The notes under the pieces are model-generated. The model did no database searches, was not told the DNA's origin, and saw only the letters and a program-made list of their open reading frames with translations. A DNA stretch of 64,000 bases. Source: Bacteroidia bacterium (GTDB lineage Bacteria; Bacteroidota; Bacteroidia; Flavobacteriales; Flavobacteriaceae). Below, piece after piece: positions 12,519 to 24,477 of the stretch. Within the stretch, counting starts at the first letter, position 1; every line of letters begins with the position of its first letter. A program made the translations under genes and the position numbers. The DNA is taken from contig JAUIGC010000001.1 in the NCBI GenBank assembly GCA_030429835.1, positions 1 through 64,000 on the forward strand. The letters run 5' to 3'.

Positions 12519-15140
12519 GTGGCGGACAAGGGAAAAACAAAAAAGGTGACTCCATTGATGAAACAGTACAACACCATCAAGACCAAATACCCTGATGCCC
12601 TATTGCTTTTTCGTGTTGGTGATTTTTATGAGACCTTTGGAGAGGATGCGGTAAAAGCCTCCAAAATACTTGGTATTATTCTTACCCACCGAAACAATGG
12701 TGGTGACCGTACGGAACTTGCAGGCTTTCCACATCATTCCCTGAATACATACTTGCCAAAACTGGTGAAGGCCGGTCAACGCGTGGCCATTTGCGACCAG
12801 TTGGAAGACCCCAAACAGACCAAGACCATAGTTAAAAGAGGCGTTACAGAATTGGTTACCCCTGGGGTGGCCCTAAACGACGATATCCTTCATGCCAAAA
12901 GCAACAATTTTCTGTGTGCCGTACATTTTGGTAGGAAAAAAATTGGGGTGGCCTTCGTGGATATTTCTACGGGAGAGTTTTTAACTTCAGAAGGTAGCGA
13001 GGAACAAGTTGACAAACTGCTGCAAAACTTTGCCCCAAACGAAATACTGGTATCCAAAGCTCACAAAAAGGAATTTTCGGAAGTATTTGGAAATCAATTC
13101 CATACTTTCTACATGGAAGATTGGGTGTTTCAAGAAGATTACGCCCTGGAAAACCTCACCAATCATTTTAAGACCAAATCCCTGAAAGGATTCGGGATTG
13201 ACCATATTTCCCATGGAATTATAGCATCTGGCGTTGTTTTGCACTATCTCTCCGAAACCCAGCACAGGCAACTTCAGCACATCAACAGCTTACAACGTAT
13301 TGCCGAGGACGAATATATTTGGATGGATCGTTTTACTATCAAGAACCTTGAATTGTACCATTCCACGAACGAGAATGCCGTTACATTATTGGACGTAATT
13401 GATAAGACGATATCCCCTATGGGTGGACGAATGATCAAACGATGGTTAGCACTGCCCCTAAAAAATATTCAAAAAATAAAAAGCCGCCATCAAGTGGTAC
13501 AGCATTTGTGCGAAAATGAGCAAGTGTTGCACAAGCTACAGGAAAATATCAAACACATGGGGGATTTGGAGCGTCTCATTTCCAAAATTTCAACCGGCAA
13601 GGTAAATCCCAAAGAGGTTGTACAGCTTAAAAACTCCCTAGAGGCCATTATCCCCATTAAGCAAATCTCGTCCAATGCAAAGAACGATGCCCTGGCCCTG
13701 ATTGGAGATAAATTGCAATCCTGTGATTTGCTACGCTCAAAAATCATGGAAATGCTCAATGAGGAAGCACCCGTAAACATACTTAAAGGGAATGTGATCG
13801 CCGAAGGTTTTTCCGCTGAACTGGATGAATTACGGGGCCTTGCCACTAGAGGAAAGGACTATTTGGACCAGATGTTGGAACGTGAAACAGAGGCCACAGG
13901 AATTACCTCCCTTAAAATAGCGTCAAACAACGTATTCGGTTATTATATAGAGGTTAGAAATACCCATAAAAACAAGGTTCCCGATACCTGGATCAGAAAA
14001 CAGACCTTGGTCAGTGCCGAACGCTATATTACAGAGGAGCTTAAGGAATATGAGTCCAAGATCTTAGGCGCCGAAGAACGCATTACCTCCTTAGAACAAC
14101 AGTTGTTTTCACAGCTTATCGTTTGGATGCAAGAATACATCCAACCCGTACAAAACAATGCTCATCTTATTGCCCAGCTCGACTGTCTCTGTGGGTTTGC
14201 TCAATTGGCCAAGGAAAACAACTATGTAATGCCCGAACTCAGCGACTCTACCGATATTTCCATAAAGAACGGAAGGCACCCTGTCATAGAAAAACAATTG
14301 CCCTTGGGAGAAGCGTATATCGCCAATGATGTAAAGTTGGATAGGAGCAAACAACAAATCATCATGATTACGGGTCCCAATATGAGTGGTAAATCGGCCA
14401 TTCTAAGACAAACGGCCCTCATCGTGCTATTGGCACAAATGGGAAGTTTTGTTCCTGCGGAAGCAGCCCAAATTGGTTATGTGGATAAAATATTTACCCG
14501 GGTGGGCGCGAGTGACAATATTTCCATGGGAGAATCTACCTTTATGGTAGAAATGAACGAAACCGCCTCCATCCTGAACAACCTATCTGAAAGAAGTTTG
14601 GTGCTTTTGGATGAAATAGGTCGGGGAACCAGTACCTACGATGGTATTTCTATCGCTTGGGCCATTTCAGAATATTTGCATGAACATCCGGCTCGGGCTA
14701 AAACACTTTTTGCTACGCACTATCACGAGCTTAATGAAATGGCGGCCACTTTTGAGCGTATAAAAAATTACAATGTTTCCGTAAAGGAACTCAAGGATAA
14801 TGTGCTTTTCCTTAGGAAATTGACACCAGGTGGCAGCGAGCATAGTTTTGGTATCCATGTAGCCAAAATGGCGGGTATGCCCCAGCAGGTTATTTCAAAA
14901 GCCAACAAAATTCTTAAGAAGTTGGAGAAATCGCACTCCAGCGAGGAACTCACCGAAAAAATGTCTACGGTACAAAACGAAATGCAGTTGAGCTTCTTTA
15001 ATTTGGATGATCCTTTATTGGAAGAAATCAAAGAAGAAATCCTGCATTTGGACATTGATACTTTGACCCCTGTAGAGGCCTTGATGAAATTAAACGAGAT
15101 AAAACGCTTGTTGTCAAAAAAGAAGAAAGCCACCTCGTAA
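12519..15140 (+). CDS. mutS: DNA mismatch repair protein MutS
   Basis: Mismatch-recognition ATPase of methyl-independent mismatch repair, 873 residues and full length. The N-terminal mismatch-reading motif Phe36-Tyr37-Glu38 sits in [13 protein letters not shown]. The connector, lever and clamp domains follow. The ATPase has Walker A GPNMSGKS at 619-626, Walker [16 protein letters not shown] and the FATHYHEL switch. The start codon is GTG at 12519, chosen because it begins the usual [17 protein letters not shown] terminus and no ATG fits. A short helical MutL/dimerisation-type tail is present. tRNA-Gly follows 95 bp downstream. Confidence 0.97.
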
Positions 15141-15167
15141 CAAAAACTATTCTTTTGCTTTTTTTAC

Positions 15168-15197
15168 TTTGACATTTATAGAATTGTATTAAATTTG
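15168..15197 (+). promoter_or_regulatory. Bacteroidota-type promoter of tRNA-Gly
   Basis: A TTTG box (15168-15171) is followed after 18 nt by TAAATTTG (15190-15197), an exact match to the TAnnTTTG -7 element of the Bacteroidota primary sigma factor. It lies about 40 nt before the tRNA. A second TAAATTTG overlaps the tRNA start (15229-15236) and is probably coincidental. Confidence 0.75.
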
Positions 15198-15235
15198 CAT
15201 CCGCATCTTTTAGGAGATGTACGTTCTTTAAATTT

Positions 15236-15308
15236 GCGAAAATAGCTCAGTTGGTAGAGCGCCACCTTGCCAAGGTGGAGGTCGCGGGTTCGAATCCCGT
15301 TTTTCGCT
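15236..15308 (+). tRNA. tRNA-Gly (anticodon GCC)
   Basis: A complete cloverleaf is visible. The acceptor GCGAAAA pairs with TTTTCGC. The D-arm is GCTC...GAGC and the anticodon arm is CCACC-TTGCCAA-GGTGG. The T-arm is GCGGG-TTCGAAT-CCCGT, with one G-T pair. The discriminator is T. CCA is not encoded. Confidence 0.96.
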
Positions 15309-15316
15309 CAATTTTT

Positions 15317-15366
15317 ACTCCGCACGGCTACGGCTACGCTAGCCATTACTCGCGGAGTTTTTTATT
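15317..15366 (+). terminator. Terminator after tRNA-Gly
   Basis: ACTCCGC (15317-15323) pairs with GCGGAGT (15352-15358), followed by a T run. The loop contains a smaller GGCTA/TAGCC stem. Confidence 0.75.
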
Positions 15367-15382
15367 TAAAACAATAAGTCCT

Positions 15383-15422
15383 GCTCAAGTGGTGGCCCCC
15401 GATAGCTATCGGGAGGTAGACA
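15383..15422 (+). pseudogene. Relic of a tRNA-Leu 5' half interrupted by a palindrome
   Basis: GCTCAAGTGGTGG (15383-15395) matches the first 13 nt of the intact tRNA-Leu at 15497 with one mismatch, and GGTAGACA (15415-15422) matches tRNA positions 18-25 exactly. In the intact gene the two blocks are separated by AATT; here they are separated by a 19-nt insert containing a 16-bp palindrome. The rest of a tRNA is not recognisable downstream. Confidence 0.6.
15398..15413. repeat. Perfect 16-bp palindrome
   Basis: CCCGATAGCTATCGGG is its own reverse complement. It sits exactly in the D-loop position of the tRNA-Leu relic. It looks like a short interspersed palindromic repeat; no second copy was seen in this window. 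Confidence 0.8.
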
Positions 15423-15496
15423 TACCAAAGGGATAATAAAAGGACTTTGTTCTAAACTTACTGTACTACCTGTTGCCAAAAAGTGGCAACGAATAT

Positions 15497-15580
15497 GCTC
15501 GAGTGGTGGAATTGGTAGACACGCCGGACTTAAAATCCTGTGGGCATTTGCCCGTGCGGGTTCAAGTCCCGCCTCGAGTA
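15497..15580 (+). tRNA. tRNA-Leu (anticodon TAA)
   Basis: A class II tRNA with a long variable arm (GGGC-ATTT-GCCC). The acceptor GCTCGAG pairs with CTCGAGT, with a G-T first pair. The anticodon loop is CTTAAAA, the T-arm is GCGGG-TTCAAGT-CCCGC and the discriminator is A. The anticodon stem CCGGA/TCCTG has a C-T mismatch at its second pair. CCA is not encoded. Its 3' end is the likely attachment site of the downstream mobile element. Confidence 0.93.
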
Positions 15581-15583
15581 CAG

Positions 15584-15627
15584 AAACCCTTGTTAATCAT
15601 TTGATTTTCAAGGGTTTTTACTTTTTT
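15584..15627 (+). terminator. Terminator after tRNA-Leu
   Basis: AAACCCTTG (15584-15592) pairs with CAAGGGTTT (15609-15617), followed by a T-rich tail. Confidence 0.8.
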
Positions 15628-15647
15628 AGGGGGCAAAATAGGGGGCA
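15628..15647. repeat. Tandem AGGGGGCA pair beside the attachment site
   Basis: AGGGGGCA occurs at 15628-15635 and again at 15640-15647, a 12-nt period, about 50 nt past the tRNA-Leu end. G-rich short repeats at this place would suit arm-type binding sites of a tyrosine integrase; that function is inferred. Confidence 0.5.
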
Positions 15648-15780
15648 TTTATTGTAAATTAGCAGATCAACTTAGAGATATTTTTTAAATGTAATACTTG
15701 CATTATTCTTTAAACTGGCGATATAGTTGAAAAAGAAATATGCCTAAATATATTCAAGACCACTGCATTAATTAAATATT

Positions 15781-17829
15781 TTAGAGTGGTTTAATAAGTT
15801 TTCCTTCAATTAAATTAAGATTGAAGTCTAACCCTTCGGTAGCTGCTCTAAATGACTCATCAGAATTCTCAAAAGATGCAAATACTAATACCTGGGCGTC
15901 ATTATAAGTGGACAGTTCTGAAAGGAACTCATGGAAATTTTCTAAAGCTATATCTTGCTGCTTAGGCTCGTCAAACATTAGCAAGCCTGGATGATTACCA
16001 CTATGTTCTTTTGAGACTTTATACAAACTACATGTATATGCCCATATACATCGAACAAAATCACTCGCAGAGGAATCAAACCTAATGTTATAAGATTTTA
16101 TCTCTCCATTTTCCAATTTTTCATTGGCAATGGGCAGATAATTTTCTTGAGAGATATCTAAGAGTTGTGTAGGCTTACTCGTATAATTTACTTTGTTCAG
16201 AATTCTTCTAAATTGATTTGTAAGCCCTGAAAGTTTTTCTCGGTCTTTTGAGGAAAAATATTCCTTTGGAAGATTTTTCATTTGCTTCAACATGCTTTCA
16301 TATTCTTGAGACAATGAAACTATCTCATTAAGCATATCAGCAAATTCGTCTTGATATTTTGTAAAAAATTCAATTCTTTTTTTAATGTTTAGCTTCCTTT
16401 CTATTTCTAACTCTGATGGTAACCTATCATCTGCAACCAATTCCTTTTTTATTTGCCTGATGTCATGACGATGCTCTGAGATTTTATTGCGAATGATAGT
16501 TTGATTTTTCTCCTTTTCTTCGATTTTATGTTTAACTCCATCCACATAAACATCTACCATTTTCATTTGAGCTTCTATGAACGAAATATTTTCCTCTAAA
16601 TTCATAGGATTTTGCTCAATATCTGCTGGTAATAAGGAGTCTTTAACAGGCTGATTGCAGGTAGGGCAATTGTCATTTGCTGATTTCAACTTGACTTCAG
16701 CCCCAAGCTTTTTCATCTTCAGAGCTCCTTTGTTTTTTCTTAAATCTTCTGTTAGAGATTGTAACTGTGTACTGTATCGACCTAATTTGTCCTTATCAAA
16801 ACTCAATTCGGTAGATAACATTTCATAATTAAGTGATAACCTATTTACCGCATTATTTAGTGCCTCTAACCTTAGTTCATTCTCATTCAAATTGGTTGAA
16901 ACAGAAGGAATATGTTTACTTTCTATTTCTTCTAATTCATTCTCCATCACCTCCAAATAATTTGAAACAGTAATATCACTTTCGTTATGTGTCAGGAGAA
17001 TTTTAATCGCGCTAGAGTCGTTAATAATTGATGGTTTATGTTCTAAGCCAATAAGTTTACCACCACCTTTTTCAGCCAATCTATAGAACTGCCTGTATAA
17101 TGATTCCCACCTGTCATCTATTATCCTTCTATCAGAATTAAGCTTTTGTCGCTTTCTTTGATTTTCATAAACATCTAAATCAAGTAAGAATTCAACAACT
17201 CGAGCCTCCTTGTTCGTTAAACTATAGTAAGGCATGGTCGCGAAAAAATCTGACCAACCCGATTTTTGTTCAATTATGAAAGCGGACGCAACTTGCTGTA
17301 AATAGAGTTTTCTTGATTCACCAAGTTTATTTAACACATGAGGCAGCTCCCATCCTAAAAAGTCTTCGAGAAATAAATGAAACCCATAATATTCATCAGA
17401 TGCACCACCTTTATCATGAACAAACATTGGCCTTGGCTCGGTTTCGTTTATATTTTGGCTCAAAACCGCTTCTTCAAAAACATCTATTAGTTTAGAATCT
17501 CTATTCGTACTTGCAATGCTTCTTCTTAATGTAATAATTTGCCCTTGTTGATTTTCAATTTCTAACAGAACGAAAGATTGCAGTACATCATGAAAATTGT
17601 CTTTTGGGAACTCAACAACATCTTTAAGTACTGATTGCATTGTCTTCTCATTTCTGCCTCCGATCAATTCTTCAAGTCCTAAACAATAGAGTATAGCTTG
17701 GAAAAAACTACTTTTACCTGAAGTGTTATCTCCCCTTACAATGTTTAACCCGATTGTAAAATGATACTCTGCTCCAAACAGTCCTGAAGATGTATTAACC
17801 TCAAATTTTATTGCATTGATTTTAAGCAT
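15781..17829 (-). CDS. Rad50-like ABC ATPase (DUF3732-like) of an ABC-3C-type defence system
   Basis: A 682-residue SMC/Rad50-type ATPase. Walker A is GDNTSGKS at 33-40. Two coiled-coil arms flank a zinc-hook CPTC at 388-391. The C-terminal half has an SSASDF signature-like segment and Walker B GLLMFDEPKQQD (about 616-627). This layout fits the ATPase of ABC three-component (ABC-3C) conflict systems, in which an ABC ATPase senses a signal and licenses a toxic effector. It is the last gene of a three-gene minus-strand operon and overlaps the middle gene by 8 nt. Family assignment is from motif and context; an HMM search was not possible. Confidence 0.8.
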   Translation of the reverse strand: MLKINAIKFEVNTSSGLFGAEYHFTIGLNIVRGDNTSGKSSFFQAILYCLGLEELIGGRNEKTMQSVLKDVVEFPKDNFHDVLQSFVLLEIENQQGQIITLRRSIASTNRDSKLIDVFEEAVLSQNINETEPRPMFVHDKGGASDEYYGFHLFLEDFLGWELPHVLNKLGESRKLYLQQVASAFIIEQKSGWSDFFATMPYYSLTNKEARVVEFLLDLDVYENQRKRQKLNSDRRIIDDRWESLYRQFYRLAEKGGGKLIGLEHKPSIINDSSAIKILLTHNESDITVSNYLEVMENELEEIESKHIPSVSTNLNENELRLEALNNAVNRLSLNYEMLSTELSFDKDKLGRYSTQLQSLTEDLRKNKGALKMKKLGAEVKLKSANDNCPTCNQPVKDSLLPADIEQNPMNLEENISFIEAQMKMVDVYVDGVKHKIEEKEKNQTIIRNKISEHRHDIRQIKKELVADDRLPSELEIERKLNIKKRIEFFTKYQDEFADMLNEIVSLSQEYESMLKQMKNLPKEYFSSKDREKLSGLTNQFRRILNKVNYTSKPTQLLDISQENYLPIANEKLENGEIKSYNIRFDSSASDFVRCIWAYTCSLYKVSKEHSGNHPGLLMFDEPKQQDIALENFHEFLSELSTYNDAQVLVFASFENSDESFRAATEGLDFNLNLIEGKLIKPL

Positions 17830-18295
17830 TAAACAATGTCCATTTAGCTGTTATTTTATTTAGTCTACTATCCGTTATTTTATTTTTACCTATCTGTGAA
17901 AGGTAAGTCTTCTCAAAACTTAAAATTTCAACATCATTAGCAATAAGTTCATAAAGTTCATTTCCTTTTTCAGTTAAAGTATAATTACCATTTGAATAGC
18001 TACAGATTTCTTCTGCAACCGAAATATGAAGTGCCCTATTTAAAGTAGGTTCTATTCCCCAAACTGAAAAATCATTAGTGAAATTACTATTAATAAAATC
18101 TCTAAGCTCTGCTCTATTCTTTTCACTTTTTAAAGCCCAAGAAAACAAGTGCAGCTTCAATAGTTTAGAACTATTACTCCTACAAACCAATTTTAAGATA
18201 AGTACTATTTGAGCAATCTTATAAAGTGGTCTATAATCCGCAGGTAAAGGAATAGGTTTTTTTGAGAATGATATTTTCTGAATTGTTCCTTCCAT
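17822..18295 (-). CDS. Small middle component of the ABC-3C-type cassette
   Basis: A 157-residue protein starting at ATG 18295; an in-frame TTG at 18310 was rejected because it would overlap the preceding stop region. Its start is 1 nt after the effector stop, and its end overlaps the ATPase gene by 8 nt, so the three genes are translationally coupled. The C-terminal half (NGNYTLTEKGNELYELI) reads like a winged-helix element. In ABC-3C systems a small middle component bridges ATPase and effector; that role is inferred from position and size. Confidence 0.65.
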   Translation of the reverse strand: MEGTIQKISFSKKPIPLPADYRPLYKIAQIVLILKLVCRSNSSKLLKLHLFSWALKSEKNRAELRDFINSNFTNDFSVWGIEPTLNRALHISVAEEICSYSNGNYTLTEKGNELYELIANDVEILSFEKTYLSQIGKNKITDSRLNKITAKWTLFNA

Positions 18296-18296
18296 T

Positions 18297-19226
18297 TTAT
18301 TCAAAGTCAATTGGACATCTCATAATCCAATCTGCCATTACTTGATTGCATAGGTTAGTTACCATAGTCTCCTCTAAAAAAGGAAAACTTTCTTTTATTT
18401 TAGAGAATAGATTAGCTTTAATTTCCTTGAGTCTCTCATTGTTGTTATCTGTCGGAAACATACACTCCTCGATTACTTTTTCTTCAAATTGGCTTTTTAT
18501 TTTAATGAATTTTTCAAAATCCTCAGGGTAATCGTTCTCCCATCTTTTAAGTATAATATTCCCATTAAGAAAGTGCTTAACGCTTTGCTCCGTTAAATCA
18601 TCTACTTTTTTGTCGACATTATTTGCATCCTGAGTGAAACGTAAGGCGTGTTTCCTTTGAGCGTGTTCAACTAAAGAAATTTCCTTGCCTTTCCACTTCA
18701 ATTTTTCTTCCTCACTTATAGCCTCTGCGGGAGTAATGTCAATTTTATGATTAGTTACCCCTAATGCTGTAGTTATGTAAGGGGTTAAAAAGTCGATATC
18801 CGTGGGGATTACTTCAAAATTAGCATTATCAATTATAGACAAATTTAATGCTCTTATCTCATCCTTTTTTTTAGTACAATGAGCTATGATTTCATTTCTA
18901 CTATATTCTGGAGTTACGAAATACCAATGCTTTATTAAAGTGTCTCCAAGCCTTCTTTTAAGCTGCGTTTCAAAAGTCTTAAGCTTTCCTAAATCTTGAG
19001 TTATTTTATCACGCTGTTTATCATAGAGTTCTTCCTTTGTGTAATGCTCATCAGGACAATAACATTGAAAAGCTTTTCCAGTTCTGGTAAATCCCTCTAT
19101 CCCAAAATCTCCTGGTGTAGCTTTGATTTCTAAATAAACTTGTTCCTCATACTTCTGCTTGAAGCAAATTTGGCAAATCCGCTCCCACTTATCTCCATCA
19201 AAAATTCCGTATTCTGTATTTAACAT
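18297..19226 (-). CDS. Putative effector of the ABC-3C-type cassette, Mrr/REase-like N-terminus
   Basis: A 309-residue protein. The N-terminal 130 residues look like a PD-(D/E)XK restriction-endonuclease fold of the Mrr type. WERICQICF (about 14-22) gives the first helix, PGD40FGIE44G the metal-binding acids, and Q54CY56 takes the place of the usual QxK. The helical C-terminal part has no recognised motif and would be the domain that docks to the ATPase partners. It is the first gene of the operon (ATG 19226). The expected role is DNA cleavage during phage attack, inferred from family. The Lys-to-Tyr change at the active site is notable. Confidence 0.65.
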   Translation of the reverse strand: MLNTEYGIFDGDKWERICQICFKQKYEEQVYLEIKATPGDFGIEGFTRTGKAFQCYCPDEHYTKEELYDKQRDKITQDLGKLKTFETQLKRRLGDTLIKHWYFVTPEYSRNEIIAHCTKKKDEIRALNLSIIDNANFEVIPTDIDFLTPYITTALGVTNHKIDITPAEAISEEEKLKWKGKEISLVEHAQRKHALRFTQDANNVDKKVDDLTEQSVKHFLNGNIILKRWENDYPEDFEKFIKIKSQFEEKVIEECMFPTDNNNERLKEIKANLFSKIKESFPFLEETMVTNLCNQVMADWIMRCPIDFE

Positions 19227-19391
19227 TATTTTGTTGCGTACTTATGTTTTTGAATTTAATAAATATCGTAAAACTCTAAATAGATAGACATTATAAGAAT
19301 CAATAGTTTGCCTTTCAAATTAACAAATCGATGAAATGTAAGAATTTAAGGACGAAAAACACATAATGTAAACTTGTTATTTTAGTTAGAA

Positions 19392-19835
19392 TTATATCAT
19401 CCCCTCATTCGCAAAGCTATAAAATGAACCATGTGGGGTAACGATGATGTGGTCCAATACTTTGATATCCAACAATTCCCCTGCCTTGACTATTTTTTGG
19501 GTCAGTTGCATATCGGCCTGACTAGGAACTACGACCCCACTGGGATGGTTATGGGTAAGTATTATGGCTGTGGACAATGTCTTTAAGGCCGTTGCAAATA
19601 TCAAGCGTATGTCAACGATAGTACCTGAAATGCCTCCGGTGGAAATGGTACAGATTCCTTTTACGGTATTGCAGTTGTTCAAATAGACAACCTTAAAGGT
19701 TTCGAATAGTTCAATAGTGTTTCTATCCCAGGAATCCATAATAATATCGTTGGCACTACTGGCTTCGGTAATTTTTAATTGATTGGCACTTCCATTGTTT
19801 TTGTAACTGATTTGAATTTCGTTCGCTCTTTCCAT
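19392..19835 (-). CDS. Short RadC-like JAB-domain protein
   Basis: A 147-residue protein with the JAB/MPN metalloprotease-like signature: a Glu in the N-terminal half and HNHPSG followed by an Asp seven residues on (PSQAD). It lacks the N-terminal helix-hairpin-helix part of chromosomal RadC and is of the short type often found in mobile elements of Bacteroidota. Its role is not established; DNA-repair function of RadC is doubtful. ATG 19835 was chosen over an in-frame GTG at 19865. It is divergent from the Fic gene across a structured intergenic region. Confidence 0.85.
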   Translation of the reverse strand: MERANEIQISYKNNGSANQLKITEASSANDIIMDSWDRNTIELFETFKVVYLNNCNTVKGICTISTGGISGTIVDIRLIFATALKTLSTAIILTHNHPSGVVVPSQADMQLTQKIVKAGELLDIKVLDHIIVTPHGSFYSFANEGMI

Positions 19836-20005
19836 TGTTCTAAGATTTTGATGGCGAGCGTCCACCGGATTTTAAATGAATAAGCCAAATCTTCGCATTT
19901 GGCGTTTCATTTGAAATTCGGAGCTTGCAAAGCAAAATCTTGAACAAGATTGGAAGGAAGGGATTCCCGCTACAAAATATATTTAGGCCAATGAAGGGCA
20001 ACTAT

Positions 20006-20042
20006 AAACGCGAACGAACGCTTTTAGCGTTCGTTCGCGTTT
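20006..20042. repeat. Perfect 16-bp hairpin
   Basis: AAACGCGAACGAACGC (20006-20021) pairs fully with the sequence at 20027-20042 around a 5-nt loop TTTTA. It is GC-rich compared with its surroundings and lacks a T tract, so it is not a simple terminator. Confidence 0.85.
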
Positions 20043-20056
20043 CTGCGCGGTTTCGA

Positions 20057-20154
20057 GGAGGTTGAAAATTATAGAAGCCGGAAAGACGACCGAAGGCGGA
20101 CCAGCAAAAAGTGTCCGCTTGGTCCGGATTAAAGATGAAGGTTTTTCAACTTCC
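20057..20154. repeat. Nested hairpins between radC-like and Fic genes
   Basis: GGAGGTTGAAAA (20057-20068) pairs with TTTTCAACTTCC (20143-20154) with one mismatch. The enclosed segment has a second stem, GCGGAC (20096-20101) with GTCCGC (20113-20118), and an alternative CGGACCA/TGGTCCG pairing. This region lies just upstream of the iteron array. Confidence 0.6.
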
Positions 20155-20190
20155 GCAGGAACATGGAAAACATTTAAATACAAATTATCT

Positions 20191-20330
20191 GTAATCATTT
20201 TTCATAACAAAGTATAAAAAGTAATTGTTTTTCATGGAAAGTAATCATTTTGCATGCTATATTTGTAATCATATTTCATGATTAATGTCAAAAAGTAATC
20301 GTTTTTCACGCAAAGTAATCACTTTTCATG
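20191..20330 (+). repeat. Six iterons, consensus GTAATCATTTTTCATG
   Basis: Copies of 16 nt start at 20191, 20221, 20241, 20265, 20295 and 20315, each with zero to three differences from the consensus. Spacings are 30, 20, 24, 30 and 20 nt, mostly near whole helical turns. The last copy ends 8 nt before the chosen Fic start, so a bound protein would block promoter and ribosome access. Confidence 0.9.
20258..20265 (+). promoter_or_regulatory. Likely -7 element of the Fic gene inside the iterons
   Basis: TATATTTG matches TAnnTTTG and ends on the first base of iteron 4. No clear -33 box is visible. Transcription would start near 20272, leaving a leader of about 67 nt to ATG 20339. Confidence 0.5.
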
Positions 20331-20338
20331 GTAGAGTC

Positions 20339-21829
20339 ATGCCTGAAGAGGGCGTTTTAGTAGGCTATGCCTTCTTACTTCAAATTTTGGAAGAGCATAC
20401 AGGTAGACGTTTACCAACACCAGATGTTCTGGCAATGGTTACTGATAAGCAACAACGCTACAATACCGAACAATGGCAAGTGTTCGCCAATCGTTATATG
20501 CCCTCAAAAGATGAAATGTCCCATTTAACATTCGCGTTAAAATACGAGGGCATTGATTTATTAATCTTAAAGGAATTCTTTCTTTATGCCGGTGATGGCC
20601 TTGTAAAGACCATGATGAAGAACGAACCCACCAGTCAATACTCACGACGCATTTGGTTCCTATATGAATGGTTATTGGGCAAACAACTTGACATTCCCGA
20701 TTTAAAGGTAGGCAACTATGTCGAAATCGTCAATCCAAAACTTCAGTATGAGGGGCCAATTGAAAACAGTACCCGGCATCGCGTAAAAAACAATCTTCCC
20801 GGCACTCCTGAATTTTGTCCATTAATTCGAAGAACCGAGAAATTGGAAAATTTTACGGCAACCAAATTTCCTGAACTCATGGAAAAGGACTTGAAAGGAA
20901 GAAACAAGGATTTAATCCGCAGAACGGCCGCCTTTCTATTATTAAAAGATTCCAAGGCCTCTTTTGCCATCGAGGGTGAATACCCCCCGAACCTAAGAGC
21001 AAGAAATTGGGGCAAGGCTATTGGGCAGGCAGGAAAAAAACCTTTGTCCGTAAATGAATTAGAACGCTTACAGGATATTGTTATCGGCACGAAGAAATTA
21101 AAGCATATGGGACTCCGCATAGGGGAAGGCTTTATCGGCGAACATGACCGGGAAAGTTTATTGCCTATGCCCGACCATATTTCTGCAAAAGCAAGTGATT
21201 TGAATTCGCTGATGCAAGGGCTTATCGACGCCAATGAAAGACTTCAAAATAGCAGCTATGACCCTGTTTTGGCTGCGGCAAGCATCGCCTTTGGCTTTGT
21301 GTTCATACATCCTTTTTCCGATGGAAATGGCAGAATCCATAGGTATTTGATACATCATATATTGGTCAAAATGGGGTACACGAAACGGGATATGATTTTT
21401 CCAGTATCCTCAGCTATCCTGAACCGAATCGGGAAATATCAAGATGTTTTGGAGGCCTACTCCTCCCCTATACTGGATTTGATAGAATGGAAACCAACTC
21501 CAGATCATAACGTTGAAATTACCAATGAAACGATTGATCTATACCGCTATTTTGATGCCACTCGTCAAGCTGAATTTCTTTATGAATGTGTAGAAGAAAC
21601 TATCGAAAAGATTATTCCTGAAGAGTTGGACTTTTTAGAAAAGTACGACCGAATGACCAACTTTATCAATTCCGTTGTAACCCTGCCTGATACTAAGGTC
21701 GATCTCTTGATTAAATTCCTGAACCAAAATCAAGGCAAACTTTCAAAGAACAAAAGAACTAAGGAATTTGATGAATTGAGTGATGAAGAAATTGCGGCTA
21801 TTGAAGCGTTTTATGGTTCAACTTTCTAA
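20339..21829 (+). CDS. Fic family protein (class II autoinhibited AMP-transferase-like)
   Basis: A 496-residue Fic protein. The catalytic motif HPFSDGNGR is complete at 324-332, as expected for an active AMPylator. An N-terminal inhibitory motif SFAIEG (208-213) matches S/T-x3-E-G/N of class II Fic proteins, in which the Glu blocks the ATP site. A C-terminal helical region (about 430-480) may be a winged-helix element. An upstream ATG at 20285 would add 18 residues encoded by two iterons in different frames, so ATG 20339 is preferred. Its promoter is embedded in the iterons, which suggests autoregulation. The protein may be a toxin-like or stabilising factor of the element; its target is unknown. 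Confidence 0.88.
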   Translation: MPEEGVLVGYAFLLQILEEHTGRRLPTPDVLAMVTDKQQRYNTEQWQVFANRYMPSKDEMSHLTFALKYEGIDLLILKEFFLYAGDGLVKTMMKNEPTSQYSRRIWFLYEWLLGKQLDIPDLKVGNYVEIVNPKLQYEGPIENSTRHRVKNNLPGTPEFCPLIRRTEKLENFTATKFPELMEKDLKGRNKDLIRRTAAFLLLKDSKASFAIEGEYPPNLRARNWGKAIGQAGKKPLSVNELERLQDIVIGTKKLKHMGLRIGEGFIGEHDRESLLPMPDHISAKASDLNSLMQGLIDANERLQNSSYDPVLAAASIAFGFVFIHPFSDGNGRIHRYLIHHILVKMGYTKRDMIFPVSSAILNRIGKYQDVLEAYSSPILDLIEWKPTPDHNVEITNETIDLYRYFDATRQAEFLYECVEETIEKIIPEELDFLEKYDRMTNFINSVVTLPDTKVDLLIKFLNQNQGKLSKNKRTKEFDELSDEEIAAIEAFYGSTF

Positions 21830-21857
21830 TTCAAACCCATGCCATCGAAGAGAAAAA

Positions 21858-23561
21858 CTAAAACCGAATCAAACCTTCATCTTGTTTAGCCATAGGTTCG
21901 AAGATACTTTTGCCCTGCCAAATAATCTTTTGGTAATTGTCTTGAATATCCTGATCCGTTGCCCTAATTGGAAAATCGAAACCACTATCTCCTAACCACT
22001 CATTGATTGCAAATTCAGATTTTAAGATTTCCCTCTCGTTGCCTTCGGCTATTAGACCATAGAATTCCCCTGGTCGAAGACTCATTATATCGGTGGTTTT
22101 TACTCGGTCCCGTTCTTGAACGGTTTCGTTGGTACTTTTGTTCAAAGAATTGGTGTGCTTACCAAAAATGGAGGATTGATAATAGTTATCCCCATGACTG
22201 GTCGTCTTAAAAGTTTTGTCCGCCTTGCCGAATATATGGGTTATCATCTGTGCGGAATCCTTATTGACCGTTCTTCCGTAAAACTGGCTTCCCATGTTGG
22301 ACAGCATAACCTGGGCCTTGTCACTTCCGTATCGGTCTACGAGTTGGCTAAAATCTTGACAGGCCAAAACCGTCGCTACCCTATTGCTGCGGGCCGTGGC
22401 AGGGGTCTGTTCCAGTTTGTTGATATAGAGGGTGGGCAGCTCGTCCACCAATACTATCGATTTATGTTTACCCGGTTGATTCATCTTTTTTAAGGCTACG
22501 GAAATAAGCAGGGAGATTACAGGGGCATAGGTTTCGGACAAGGTGCTTTCGTTTCCGATACAAAGGAATTTTGGGTTTAGCGGGTCGTTGATGTTTAAAT
22601 CAAGGTCGTTTCCGGAAAGTATCCAGAAAATATCGGGCGTATTAAGCTTCGCCAAATTGGTGCGTAAGGTACTTACCACTCCTGCCACTTGGTTGGAGGC
22701 TTCATTTTGAACTGCCTGTTTTAAACTGGCAATAAAACCCGCAGCCTGCGGATTTTCGGATATCCGTTCCACCAGTTCCGATATATCGCTATGTAAAATC
22801 AAACTTATCACATGCGGAAGGCTACAATAGAGGGGATGCTCCGATTTCAGATACCATATAAGCCCGGTCAGCACACTTTTAGCCTCCATCATCCAATAGT
22901 CCTCGTTCTTGATGTTCTTGGGAGAAAGGTTGTACATCAGGGTCTGGGCATATTCGTGGGCATAAGCAATTTTAGGTAACAGTTCGGGTTGTAAGGGATT
23001 TGTCCGCGCACTTCTCCGGGCTTCCTTGAAATCGATAAAAATAGGTCGGACTATCCCCTCCCCTTTTTTAACCGTAGCAAATAGTAATTGTGTCAATTCG
23101 GGGGATTTAAAATCATAACATATTCCTGAATAATTTTTGGCAACAGCCTGTATCAATATGGGGTGTATCAAAGAGACCGACTTTCCACTCCCCGCTCCTC
23201 CCTGGATATAAATGCCCCGATATGGATTCTCCAAGAGTATGTTCTTCCCACCGACTGAAAACAAAAAGCCCTCCAGACTGTCCTGAACCTCATTGTGGAC
23301 AACTTCGCTTTTCTTAAATAGGGAAAGTACCCAAGCGTAAATCCGATAGGAAGTCCAACCTAGGACAAAACATGGGATAAAAAGTGCCAATGGAAAAAAT
23401 GTGGTTAGGGGAAAAGAAACAAAGAGTGCTAGAAAAAAGTGCATCCTACAGACACGCTTTAAAAACAGCAAGTAGACTACAAAGGCGACAAAGCGCATCA
23501 ACAGATGTATGATGGGGTGCGTACCTCCCATCAGCAATTCCATAAATACCGACTTGTCCAT
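21858..23561 (-). CDS. Type IV coupling protein, TraG/VirD4-like
   Basis: A 567-residue ATPase that would deliver the relaxase-DNA complex to a type IV secretion channel. Two or three N-terminal transmembrane segments (about 15-80) anchor it in the inner membrane. Walker A GGAGSGKS lies near residue 120, and a Walker B-like SIVLVDELPTLY (about 368-379) and ATVLACQDFSQL follow. It is the last gene of a mobilisation operon, starting 4 nt after the relaxase stop. Presence without channel genes implies use of another element's conjugation apparatus. Confidence 0.9.
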   Translation of the reverse strand: MDKSVFMELLMGGTHPIIHLLMRFVAFVVYLLFLKRVCRMHFFLALFVSFPLTTFFPLALFIPCFVLGWTSYRIYAWVLSLFKKSEVVHNEVQDSLEGFLFSVGGKNILLENPYRGIYIQGGAGSGKSVSLIHPILIQAVAKNYSGICYDFKSPELTQLLFATVKKGEGIVRPIFIDFKEARRSARTNPLQPELLPKIAYAHEYAQTLMYNLSPKNIKNEDYWMMEAKSVLTGLIWYLKSEHPLYCSLPHVISLILHSDISELVERISENPQAAGFIASLKQAVQNEASNQVAGVVSTLRTNLAKLNTPDIFWILSGNDLDLNINDPLNPKFLCIGNESTLSETYAPVISLLISVALKKMNQPGKHKSIVLVDELPTLYINKLEQTPATARSNRVATVLACQDFSQLVDRYGSDKAQVMLSNMGSQFYGRTVNKDSAQMITHIFGKADKTFKTTSHGDNYYQSSIFGKHTNSLNKSTNETVQERDRVKTTDIMSLRPGEFYGLIAEGNEREILKSEFAINEWLGDSGFDFPIRATDQDIQDNYQKIIWQGKSIFEPMAKQDEGLIRF

Positions 23562-23565
23562 GAGC

Positions 23566-24477
23566 TTACCTTGTAATTTGATTGTTTCTCTTAATTATCC
23601 TTTCCTTTTGAATACTCTTGGCCATTTTGATTTCATTTGAGAGAGAGCGATTTTCAATGACTTGGTTCCTTTCATTTTGTATGGCCATTTTCAACACCTT
23701 TTTCTCTTCTAGGGTACCATGCTTTAAAACCCGAAGCGTCTCAAATTTTTCCTCCAGGCCCCTCTTGTACCTGAACATATCATCAAAAGTGTCTTCGTTC
23801 CGTTGTTTCCATTGGGAACGGTCAAATCCCCCATTTACTTTTTTTCCGTTCAGGACTAGATTCTTGCCACTACGGGCATTGGCCAAGGGGCTTAGGTTTA
23901 TCCTATAATCCTTGTGCATTCTCGAAACGGTAATATGTACATGGGTCTGCAGCCCTTCTTTACGTTCCCCGCTTTTGGCCTTGCCGACCAATACCTCTTT
24001 ATCGGTTCCCTTATAATATCTTCGGTGCTCAATCTTGGCAAACCAAACAAGTTGCTTCTCGGTAATTCCCTTATTAAAGTTGTCCGCATAATTTCGCATG
24101 GCCTGTCGGGTAAACAATCGGATAACCTCATTGTAATCCTGTAACTCCTTGTCGCCTAATTCGGCAACATCCCTGATGGGTCTTTTTGCCAAGGTCGATG
24201 TAAGATGTTCCAGCTCCTTATTGCTAAAATTCAGGGTCATCGTAAAATACCGGTCCTGTTTTTTGGCCAATCCTTTGTTTTTTCCATTGTCATCGACCAT
24301 TGAAATCGCCTTTAGGGTCGTGAGCGTATTTTGTTCCTGGTCGAAGAAAAACTGTTGCCGATGCCCTAGGCCCTCCTTCTTCAGCACCTTATTTTCCTTA
24401 TTTAGGTAATGTCCGTATTTGGAGCAACTGCCCTTATTTTCTTGGGAAGTGGTATGAACGATACTTATGGGCATCAT
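23566..24477 (-). CDS. Relaxase/mobilisation protein, MobB-like (DUF5712-like)
   Basis: A 303-residue basic protein expected to nick oriT and pilot the transferred strand. A histidine pair in GLQTHVHITVSR (about 195-206) corresponds to the metal-binding HxH of HUH-type relaxases. The C-terminus is a long charged helix ending in a Lys/Arg-rich stretch. Catalytic Tyr cannot be assigned with certainty. The start ATG overlaps the BfmA stop in an ATGA arrangement; a second ATG 3 nt downstream is equally possible. It is followed by the coupling protein after 4 nt. Confidence 0.75.
   Translation of the reverse strand: MMPISIVHTTSQENKGSCSKYGHYLNKENKVLKKEGLGHRQQFFFDQEQNTLTTLKAISMVDDNGKNKGLAKKQDRYFTMTLNFSNKELEHLTSTLAKRPIRDVAELGDKELQDYNEVIRLFTRQAMRNYADNFNKGITEKQLVWFAKIEHRRYYKGTDKEVLVGKAKSGERKEGLQTHVHITVSRMHKDYRINLSPLANARSGKNLVLNGKKVNGGFDRSQWKQRNEDTFDDMFRYKRGLEEKFETLRVLKHGTLEEKKVLKMAIQNERNQVIENRSLSNEIKMAKSIQKERIIKRNNQITR

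Follow-up and report, generated by a model that had tools for sequence, protein, structure and literature searches.

In the mitochondria of the fungus Allomyces, at the atp6/ORF360 locus, a mobile endonuclease gene duplicates and restores the end of its host gene. Free-standing GIY-YIG endonucleases near tRNA genes are already known in phages. The GIY-YIG enzyme SegB of phage T6 makes its cuts inside tRNA genes and thereby causes the tRNA-segB segment to be amplified in tandem, by RecA-type homologous recombination and with microhomology between the tRNA 5′ end and segB (PMC13096335). The homing endonucleases of phage T4 have been reviewed (PMC2988022), and bacterial group I introns occur in tRNA genes (PMC3984707).

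Here, we describe a locus in the genome of a Bacteroidia bacterium (G000; assembly of 3.56 Mb, 82.6% complete) where a tRNA-Leu fragment split by a hairpin lies upstream of an intact tRNA-Leu(UAA) gene, and we compare it with these systems. The window, the whole stretch of DNA analysed, is 64,000 nucleotides long; positions without a genome label refer to it.

A hairpin-split copy of tRNA-Leu

Two blocks of the tRNA-Leu 5′ half stand in their native order at 15383–15422, arranged as GCTCAAGTGGTGG-CCCCCGATAGCTATCGGGA-GGTAGACA (Table 1). GCTCAAGTGGTGG matches nt 1–13 of tRNA-Leu at 12 of 13 positions and GGTAGACA matches nt 18–25 at all eight; the AATT of the D-loop between them is replaced by the 19-nt insert CCCCCGATAGCTATCGGGA, with its palindrome core at 15398–15413. 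The split copy claimed in a preliminary description of this DNA is thus real. When the 187-nt spacer was shuffled with its dinucleotides preserved, the two blocks never came up in order (0/2000), and the 12/13 match alone was obtained 9 times in 2000 (0.45%). The empty sites and the occurrence of the chimeric unit in other genera, described below, are far stronger support than this shuffle test.

Table 1. Features around the split tRNA-Leu copy in the window, and tandem GIY-YIG arrays in other genomes
Feature	Position	Strand	Basis or remark
tRNA-Gly(GCC)	15236..15309	+	ARAGORN; Rfam tRNA 75.9 bits; upstream neighbour in nearly all listed relatives
Inverted repeat ACTCCGC...GCGGAGT with T-run, terminator-like, 3′ of tRNA-Gly	15317..15364	+	sequence
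Old tRNA-Leu 5′ end (nt 1–13, 12/13)	15383..15395	+	left copy of 13-nt direct repeat with 15497–15509
Hairpin insert CCCCCGATAGCTATCGGGA in D-loop, just 5′ of D-loop GG	15396..15414	.	sequence; tRNA-Asn fragments L189, L190, L191, L209
Rest of tRNA-Leu fragment (nt 18–25, GGTAGACA, 8/8)	15415..15422	+	GGTAGACAC in most relatives
Inserted spacer, 74 nt, without ORF	15423..15496	+	right part 15438–15499 92% identical in G297
Second hairpin GTTGCCA-AAAAG-TGGCAAC near right end of insert	15472..15490	.	sequence, folding; kept with changes in G030, G010, G297
Intact tRNA-Leu(UAA)	15497..15581	+	ARAGORN; Rfam 55.7 bits; nt 1–13 are the right direct-repeat copy
GIY-YIG tandem array	G232:C1 541821-543977
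GIY-YIG tandem array	G197:C1 1215154-1216969
GIY-YIG tandem array	G287:C8 82366-83230

An Rfam scan of 15100–15700 gave nothing above threshold besides tRNA-Gly and tRNA-Leu. Motifs of the form GTTCTT(T)AA, resembling an antitermination boxA, were seen 5′ of tRNA-Gly (15209–15230) and in the leaders of three of the GIY-YIG units described below (L189, L191, L196). Two GGGGGCA repeats directly follow the tRNA-Leu terminator (15629–15647). Farther downstream, at 15781–24477, is a block of mobile-element-like genes, judged by eye to be AAA ATPase-like, RadC-like, Fic-like, TraG/VirD4-like and relaxase-like; no tRNA-Leu 3′ repeat bounding this block was found in the window.

Empty and filled sites at tRNA-Leu(UAA)

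The relatives compared here are of the same genus, Maribacter; the sequence of G030 agrees with that of Maribacter sp. 4G9. In two of these genomes, G031 and G005, the site is empty: the spacer AATAAGTCC joins straight to TGCTCGAGTGGTGGAATTGG, the start of an intact tRNA-Leu. These sites (L017 and L018, respectively) identify AATAAGTCCT, to the left of 15383–15395, as the native flank. Their spacers also contain the inverted repeat found 3′ of tRNA-Gly, which therefore belongs to the ancestral spacer. In G000, G030 and G010 the site is filled: the left flank is as in the empty sites, followed by the hairpin-split fragment and, later, the intact tRNA-Leu. As the same left flank runs directly into tRNA-Leu in G031 and G005, this genome carries a 114-nt insertion (15383–15496) that duplicates tRNA-Leu nt 1–13 and leaves the tRNA intact. 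The layout of the unit is fragment, hairpin, fragment and 74-nt spacer. The preliminary description had proposed insertion of a tiny palindromic element into a duplicated tRNA. The palindrome-interrupted copy holds, but a bare 16-bp palindrome as the insert does not, given the 114-nt unit and the empty sites.

A genome of another genus, G297, has a spacer 92% identical over 62 nt at its tRNA-Leu locus (E = 1.9e-19). The flanks on both sides of the insertion are unlike those in G000, and the upstream mutS genes are 76% identical. In a mutS tree, which was partly resolved with many weak forks, filled and empty genomes were interleaved. The unit is patchy, occurring in 3 of 36 genomes of the genus and 2 of 301 of the family. 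Each of the three filled genomes of the genus has its own changes in the unit, which is thus drifting within the genus. Exact deletion between the two 13-nt repeats could also account for some of the patchiness.

Distribution of the palindrome and of the chimeric unit

We found one copy of the palindrome in the window and three in the assembly. Of 60 genomes, 24 have it, and the reversed control pattern matched none of the 60. Within the genus, 50 of 67 palindromes are away from tRNAs. In five genomes it stands 5 nt before tRNA-Phe as a leader, and no tRNA fragment adjoins it (L003, G000:C315 23231-23246; L118; L135; L143; L149). It is also central to repeat families unrelated to tRNA, such as CTAAATCCATT-palindrome-ATTAGCGAC and CGAGATGT-palindrome-ATGGCGAA (L107–L110, L119–L124, L140–L142 and others). 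The palindrome is therefore not specific to the system of tRNA genes and GIY-YIG genes described below. The preliminary description would have been contradicted had the two blocks been common by chance near the palindrome in places without tRNA similarity; this was not so, and the listed flanks of the palindromes away from tRNAs contained no tRNA-Leu blocks.

In a scan of GTDB species genomes, the chimeric unit was found between tRNA-Gly and tRNA-Leu, directly 5′ of tRNA-Leu, in 13 records, each from a genome other than this one. They include two Maribacter, Muriicola marianensis, another Muriicola, Robiginitalea, Robertkochia, 'Cytophaga' FL35, a Crocinitomicaceae MAG and other Bacteroidota MAGs. 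The alternative suggestion of the preliminary description, a conserved chimeric repeat, was right in that the unit is conserved. It stands directly 5′ of tRNA-Leu in 13 of the 15 scan matches. The other two, in Geomonas (L087) and an Armatimonadetes genome (L091), have no tRNA and were set aside as chance matches. A generic search for split tRNA-Leu copies in 398 genomes of the order returned only G000 and one chance match.

The fragment and palindrome of these units are nearly constant, and the spacers, 12–75 nt long, fall into unlike groups. In the Muriicola/Robiginitalea group, for example, most pairs share the 40-nt unit at 100% identity, with spacers that are 29–77% identical. Muriicola marianensis has two units in tandem. 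One contig with a Bacteroidota-type tRNA-Gly/tRNA-Leu pair and the unit (L096) is from a MAG labelled Acidimicrobiia and was probably mis-binned. The hairpins of L088, L096 and L097 are nested palindromes (TCCCGATA-TCCCGATAGTTATCGGGA-GGGA), as if one had grown within another.

Small GIY-YIG genes beside tRNA genes

Following the palindromes through the genus brought GIY-YIG genes to light. In five genomes (G022, G011, G003, G029 and G032), a tRNA-Met fragment split by the palindrome adjoins a gene for a GIY-YIG protein (PF01541) of 98–99 residues. In G014 and G010, the palindrome splits a 5′ fragment of tRNA-Arg(CCT), which is followed by a GIY-YIG gene and then by the intact tRNA-Arg. This is the layout seen here at tRNA-Leu(UAA), except that the gene is present. 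All three states of the tRNA-Arg(CCT) site were found in the genus: empty (G005, G031), GIY-bearing (G014, G010) and ORF-less (G000, G030, G007). The ORF-less 5′ unit of this genome (G000:C194 2879-3139, L171) has GGCCTCGTA and then the hairpin CCTACCTAAAGGTAGATAGG. About 100 nt downstream of the same tRNA-Arg(CCT) is a 16-nt repeat of its 3′ end, which looks like an integrase scar.

The proteins encoded beside tRNAs scored above the cut-off for PF01541. We built a profile from a ten-row alignment, in which nearly all core catalytic positions were invariant (Y10, Y21, G23, R31, H35 and E69). The profile family was present in 188 of 247 good family genomes, a count of all members, of which only a part adjoin tRNAs, and many members were in arrays of fixed period. 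Among 57 sampled GIY-YIG loci, 42 were within 500 nt of a tRNA and 40 had tRNA fragments; the chance expectation for such adjacency is at most about 2%, as estimated from ~45 tRNA genes per genome. The targets are Asn, Met, Arg (four kinds), Phe, Leu(CAA), Pro and Asp, with Ala in loci of the genus. At least eight other tRNA species are flanked by units built like the one at tRNA-Leu(UAA), with a 5′ fragment carrying a hairpin in or beside the D-arm, a spacer and the intact tRNA. Many of these units have a GIY-YIG gene, which encodes 80–100 residues and is on the same strand as the tRNA, often in tandem arrays. Regular arrays of three to six genes with fixed spacing (for example, 381 nt) were observed, several with identical scores (Table 1). 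Weaker matches away from tRNAs, that of this genome included, look like another, ordinary GIY-YIG clade.

When an Arg-type protein was compared with a phage collection, no match was found, and a Met-type protein matched ten Rhizobium phage records at about 39%. A search of a plasmid collection with the GIY-YIG protein and a search of PHROGs with the family protein gave no match. The nearest solved relatives are small GIY-YIG proteins of the UPF0213 type (PDB 1ZG2, E = 2e-14; 1YWL, 1e-11).

Anatomy of the split fragments

A perfect stem of at least 6 bp was present at the break in 28 of 43 distinct 5′ tRNA fragments, compared with 47 of 860 random positions. The breaks cluster at nt 10–15, 22–24 and 27, and the tRNA sequence continues past the hairpin. 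Some fragments have two hairpins, one on each side of the D-stem (L217, L200, L211). The hairpin sequence differs between units (TCCCGATA..., CCTGCC..., CCCGCC...). The tRNA-Asn fragment is broken as TCCTCCTTAGCTCA-TCCCGATAGCTATCGGGA-GGTTAGAGC and is followed by a GIY-YIG gene and then tRNA-Asn; it has the identical palindrome at the same D-loop point as the tRNA-Leu(UAA) fragment, just before the D-loop GG. This design of a palindrome in the D-arm was found at tRNA-Asn, Arg, Met, Ala, Pro and Leu(CAA), in most cases beside a GIY-YIG gene. Other ORF-less units were found at tRNA-Met (L126, two of 96 nt) and tRNA-Ala (L079, 85-nt period). In Robertkochia, the leader of an ORF-less unit at tRNA-Leu(CAA) (L235) is homologous to that of the adjoining GIY-YIG unit.

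Relation of the tRNA-Leu(UAA) unit to the GIY-YIG family

We compared the tRNA-Leu(UAA) unit with the features of the family. It has a hairpin-split 5′ fragment located 5′ of an intact copy of the same tRNA, and relatives with empty sites (G031, G005) indicate that the tRNA was restored. A GIY-YIG gene is not inside the unit, whose 74-nt spacer has no ORF. We therefore went no further than to class it as a unit of like build that lacks the ORF. None of the genomes examined had a GIY-YIG gene at tRNA-Leu(UAA), and a search of 400 genomes for tRNA-Leu(UAA) fragments with their break at nt 24, where the GIY-bearing tRNA-Leu(CAA) units have theirs, found none. The sole GIY-YIG match in this genome, whose assembly is 82.6% complete, was weak (7e-12) and away from tRNAs. 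We connect the unit with the GIY-YIG family because of the shared anatomy, because 12 of 14 genomes with the tRNA-Leu(UAA) unit have GIY-YIG genes of the family, and because in two of these genomes, Robertkochia and Muriicola, such a gene is at tRNA-Leu(CAA).

Discussion

We lean towards reading 15383–15496, by sequence comparison, as an ORF-less, drifting or decaying unit of a homing-endonuclease-like family of GIY-YIG elements of Bacteroidota that target tRNA genes and restore them. Under this reading, the tRNA-Leu(UAA) gene would have received a unit after its nt 13. With the unit would have come a palindrome, which interrupts the D-loop in the former 5′ end, then a short spacer, and finally a new copy of nt 1–13, so that a functional tRNA-Leu would have been rebuilt. 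Autonomous members have a gene for a GIY-YIG nuclease of 80–100 residues on the same strand between the split fragment and the intact tRNA. The nuclease would make a break in or close to the D-arm of a tRNA gene that has no unit, and repair of the break from an occupied allele would copy the unit in. The essential tRNA gene would be restored by the tRNA segment that the unit carries. The hairpin may make the displaced fragment unlike the target, which would reduce both re-cutting and collapse by recombination between the repeats; it would also shorten the homology able to delete the unit. Units could then amplify in tandem or lose the ORF, and the tandem arrays are compatible with repeated events or with recombination. 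The tRNA-Leu(UAA) unit itself may have arisen from, or been moved by, a GIY-YIG element in this way.

The palindrome might instead be independently mobile, like a REP or MITE: the tRNA was duplicated in tandem, and a genome-wide palindromic repeat later entered the spare copy. Its presence in several non-tRNA repeat families of the genus, the variation of hairpin sequences among units and the nested palindromes in G030, L096 and L097 agree with this, and insertion into a loop could have been the original arrival route of each hairpin. However, the same palindrome occupies exactly the same D-loop point 5′ of tRNA-Leu in several lineages whose spacers are unlike, it is also at the equivalent point of tRNA-Asn where GIY-YIG genes are adjacent, and no Y1 (REP/IS200-type) transposase (PF01797) was found in this 82.6% complete assembly, so we consider an independently mobile palindrome unlikely. 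A functional leader, in which the pre-tRNA-Leu transcript keeps the split 5′ copy and this copy controls how the transcript is made, folded or processed, could explain why the 40-nt unit is better conserved than the spacers in Muriicola/Robiginitalea. The RNA also folds better than shuffled sequences (z = −2.8 for a stretch that includes the tRNA itself). But a leader is quite unlikely in view of the very patchy distribution with absence from close relatives, and the unit in this genome is drifting, with substitutions in both blocks and beside the palindrome; its tRNA parts could, moreover, be preserved by gene conversion from the adjacent tRNA.

Two further explanations were considered. tRNA genes are usual integration sites of tyrosine-integrase elements, conjugation-type genes lie just downstream (15.8–24.5 kb), and the 3′-end repeat at tRNA-Arg(CCT) resembles a scar, all of which would suit an attachment-site scar left in tRNA-Leu by a genomic island or prophage. 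Here, though, the repeat is of the tRNA 5′ end (nt 1–13), the 3′ end has no second copy anywhere in the window, and such a scar would explain neither the palindrome in the D-loop nor the occurrence of this layout next to GIY-YIG genes; we regard it as very unlikely. An ordinary decayed tandem duplicate or a chance similarity has hardly any probability. Although tRNA genes do duplicate and decay, and the 12/13 match alone was not beyond the reach of shuffling, both blocks in order were never obtained that way, nt 1–25 alone are present, and the palindrome and its position recur across lineages.

We are evenly divided on a broader proposal: that these units form an undescribed class of chromosomal selfish elements in Bacteroidota, whose small GIY-YIG genes would home into many kinds of tRNA gene, carry a copy of the 5′ or 3′ part with which the tRNA is rebuilt, neutralize the displaced fragment by a D-arm palindrome, build up tandem copies and leave behind units without an ORF, like that at tRNA-Leu(UAA). 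If this is right, many Flavobacteriaceae carry selfish genes that are aimed at essential tRNA genes and survive by rebuilding their targets. It would make free-standing GIY-YIG homing testable in bacterial chromosomes, account for tRNA fragments and tandem nuclease genes that are puzzling when genomes are annotated, and give the amplification of tRNA by SegB in phage T6 a natural counterpart.

Comparison with known systems

Literature searches for the exact sequence of the palindrome and its variants returned nothing, and the open-licence literature, which leaves out most subscription journals, held no description of GIY-YIG units that restore a tRNA and are marked by a hairpin in the chromosomes of bacteria. 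The widespread family of small tRNA-adjacent GIY-YIG genes in marine bacteria is apparently undescribed; the titles of the UPF0213 structures (1ZG2, 1YWL) mention neither tRNA genes nor repeats. A group I intron was considered, which would likewise be mobile DNA in the same tRNA, with homing endonucleases in some cases. It was rejected: the tRNA-Leu(UAA) is uninterrupted, the insert is outside it, and the Rfam scan had no group I match. Short palindromic repeats between genes are also a feature of REP elements, RAYT/IS200-type systems and other small palindromic elements; here, in contrast, the hairpins take fixed positions within tRNA fragments and go together with GIY-YIG genes, and no Y1 transposase was found in this assembly.

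The closest cases in the literature are phage SegB and the element of fungal mitochondria. The Bacteroidota units resemble SegB of T-even phages in that a free-standing GIY-YIG gene is beside tRNA genes. Unlike segB, the Bacteroidota genes are chromosomal and encode putative nucleases of 80–100 residues without a PHROG match; their units carry a hairpin-split tRNA fragment and restore a single tRNA, and the tRNA-Leu(UAA) locus has no ORF. The atp6/ORF360 element of Allomyces differs in its genomic setting, that of fungal mitochondria, in its protein-gene target and in having no D-arm hairpin. It is similar in that a replacement is supplied for the displaced part of the host gene, and the essential gene thus survives.
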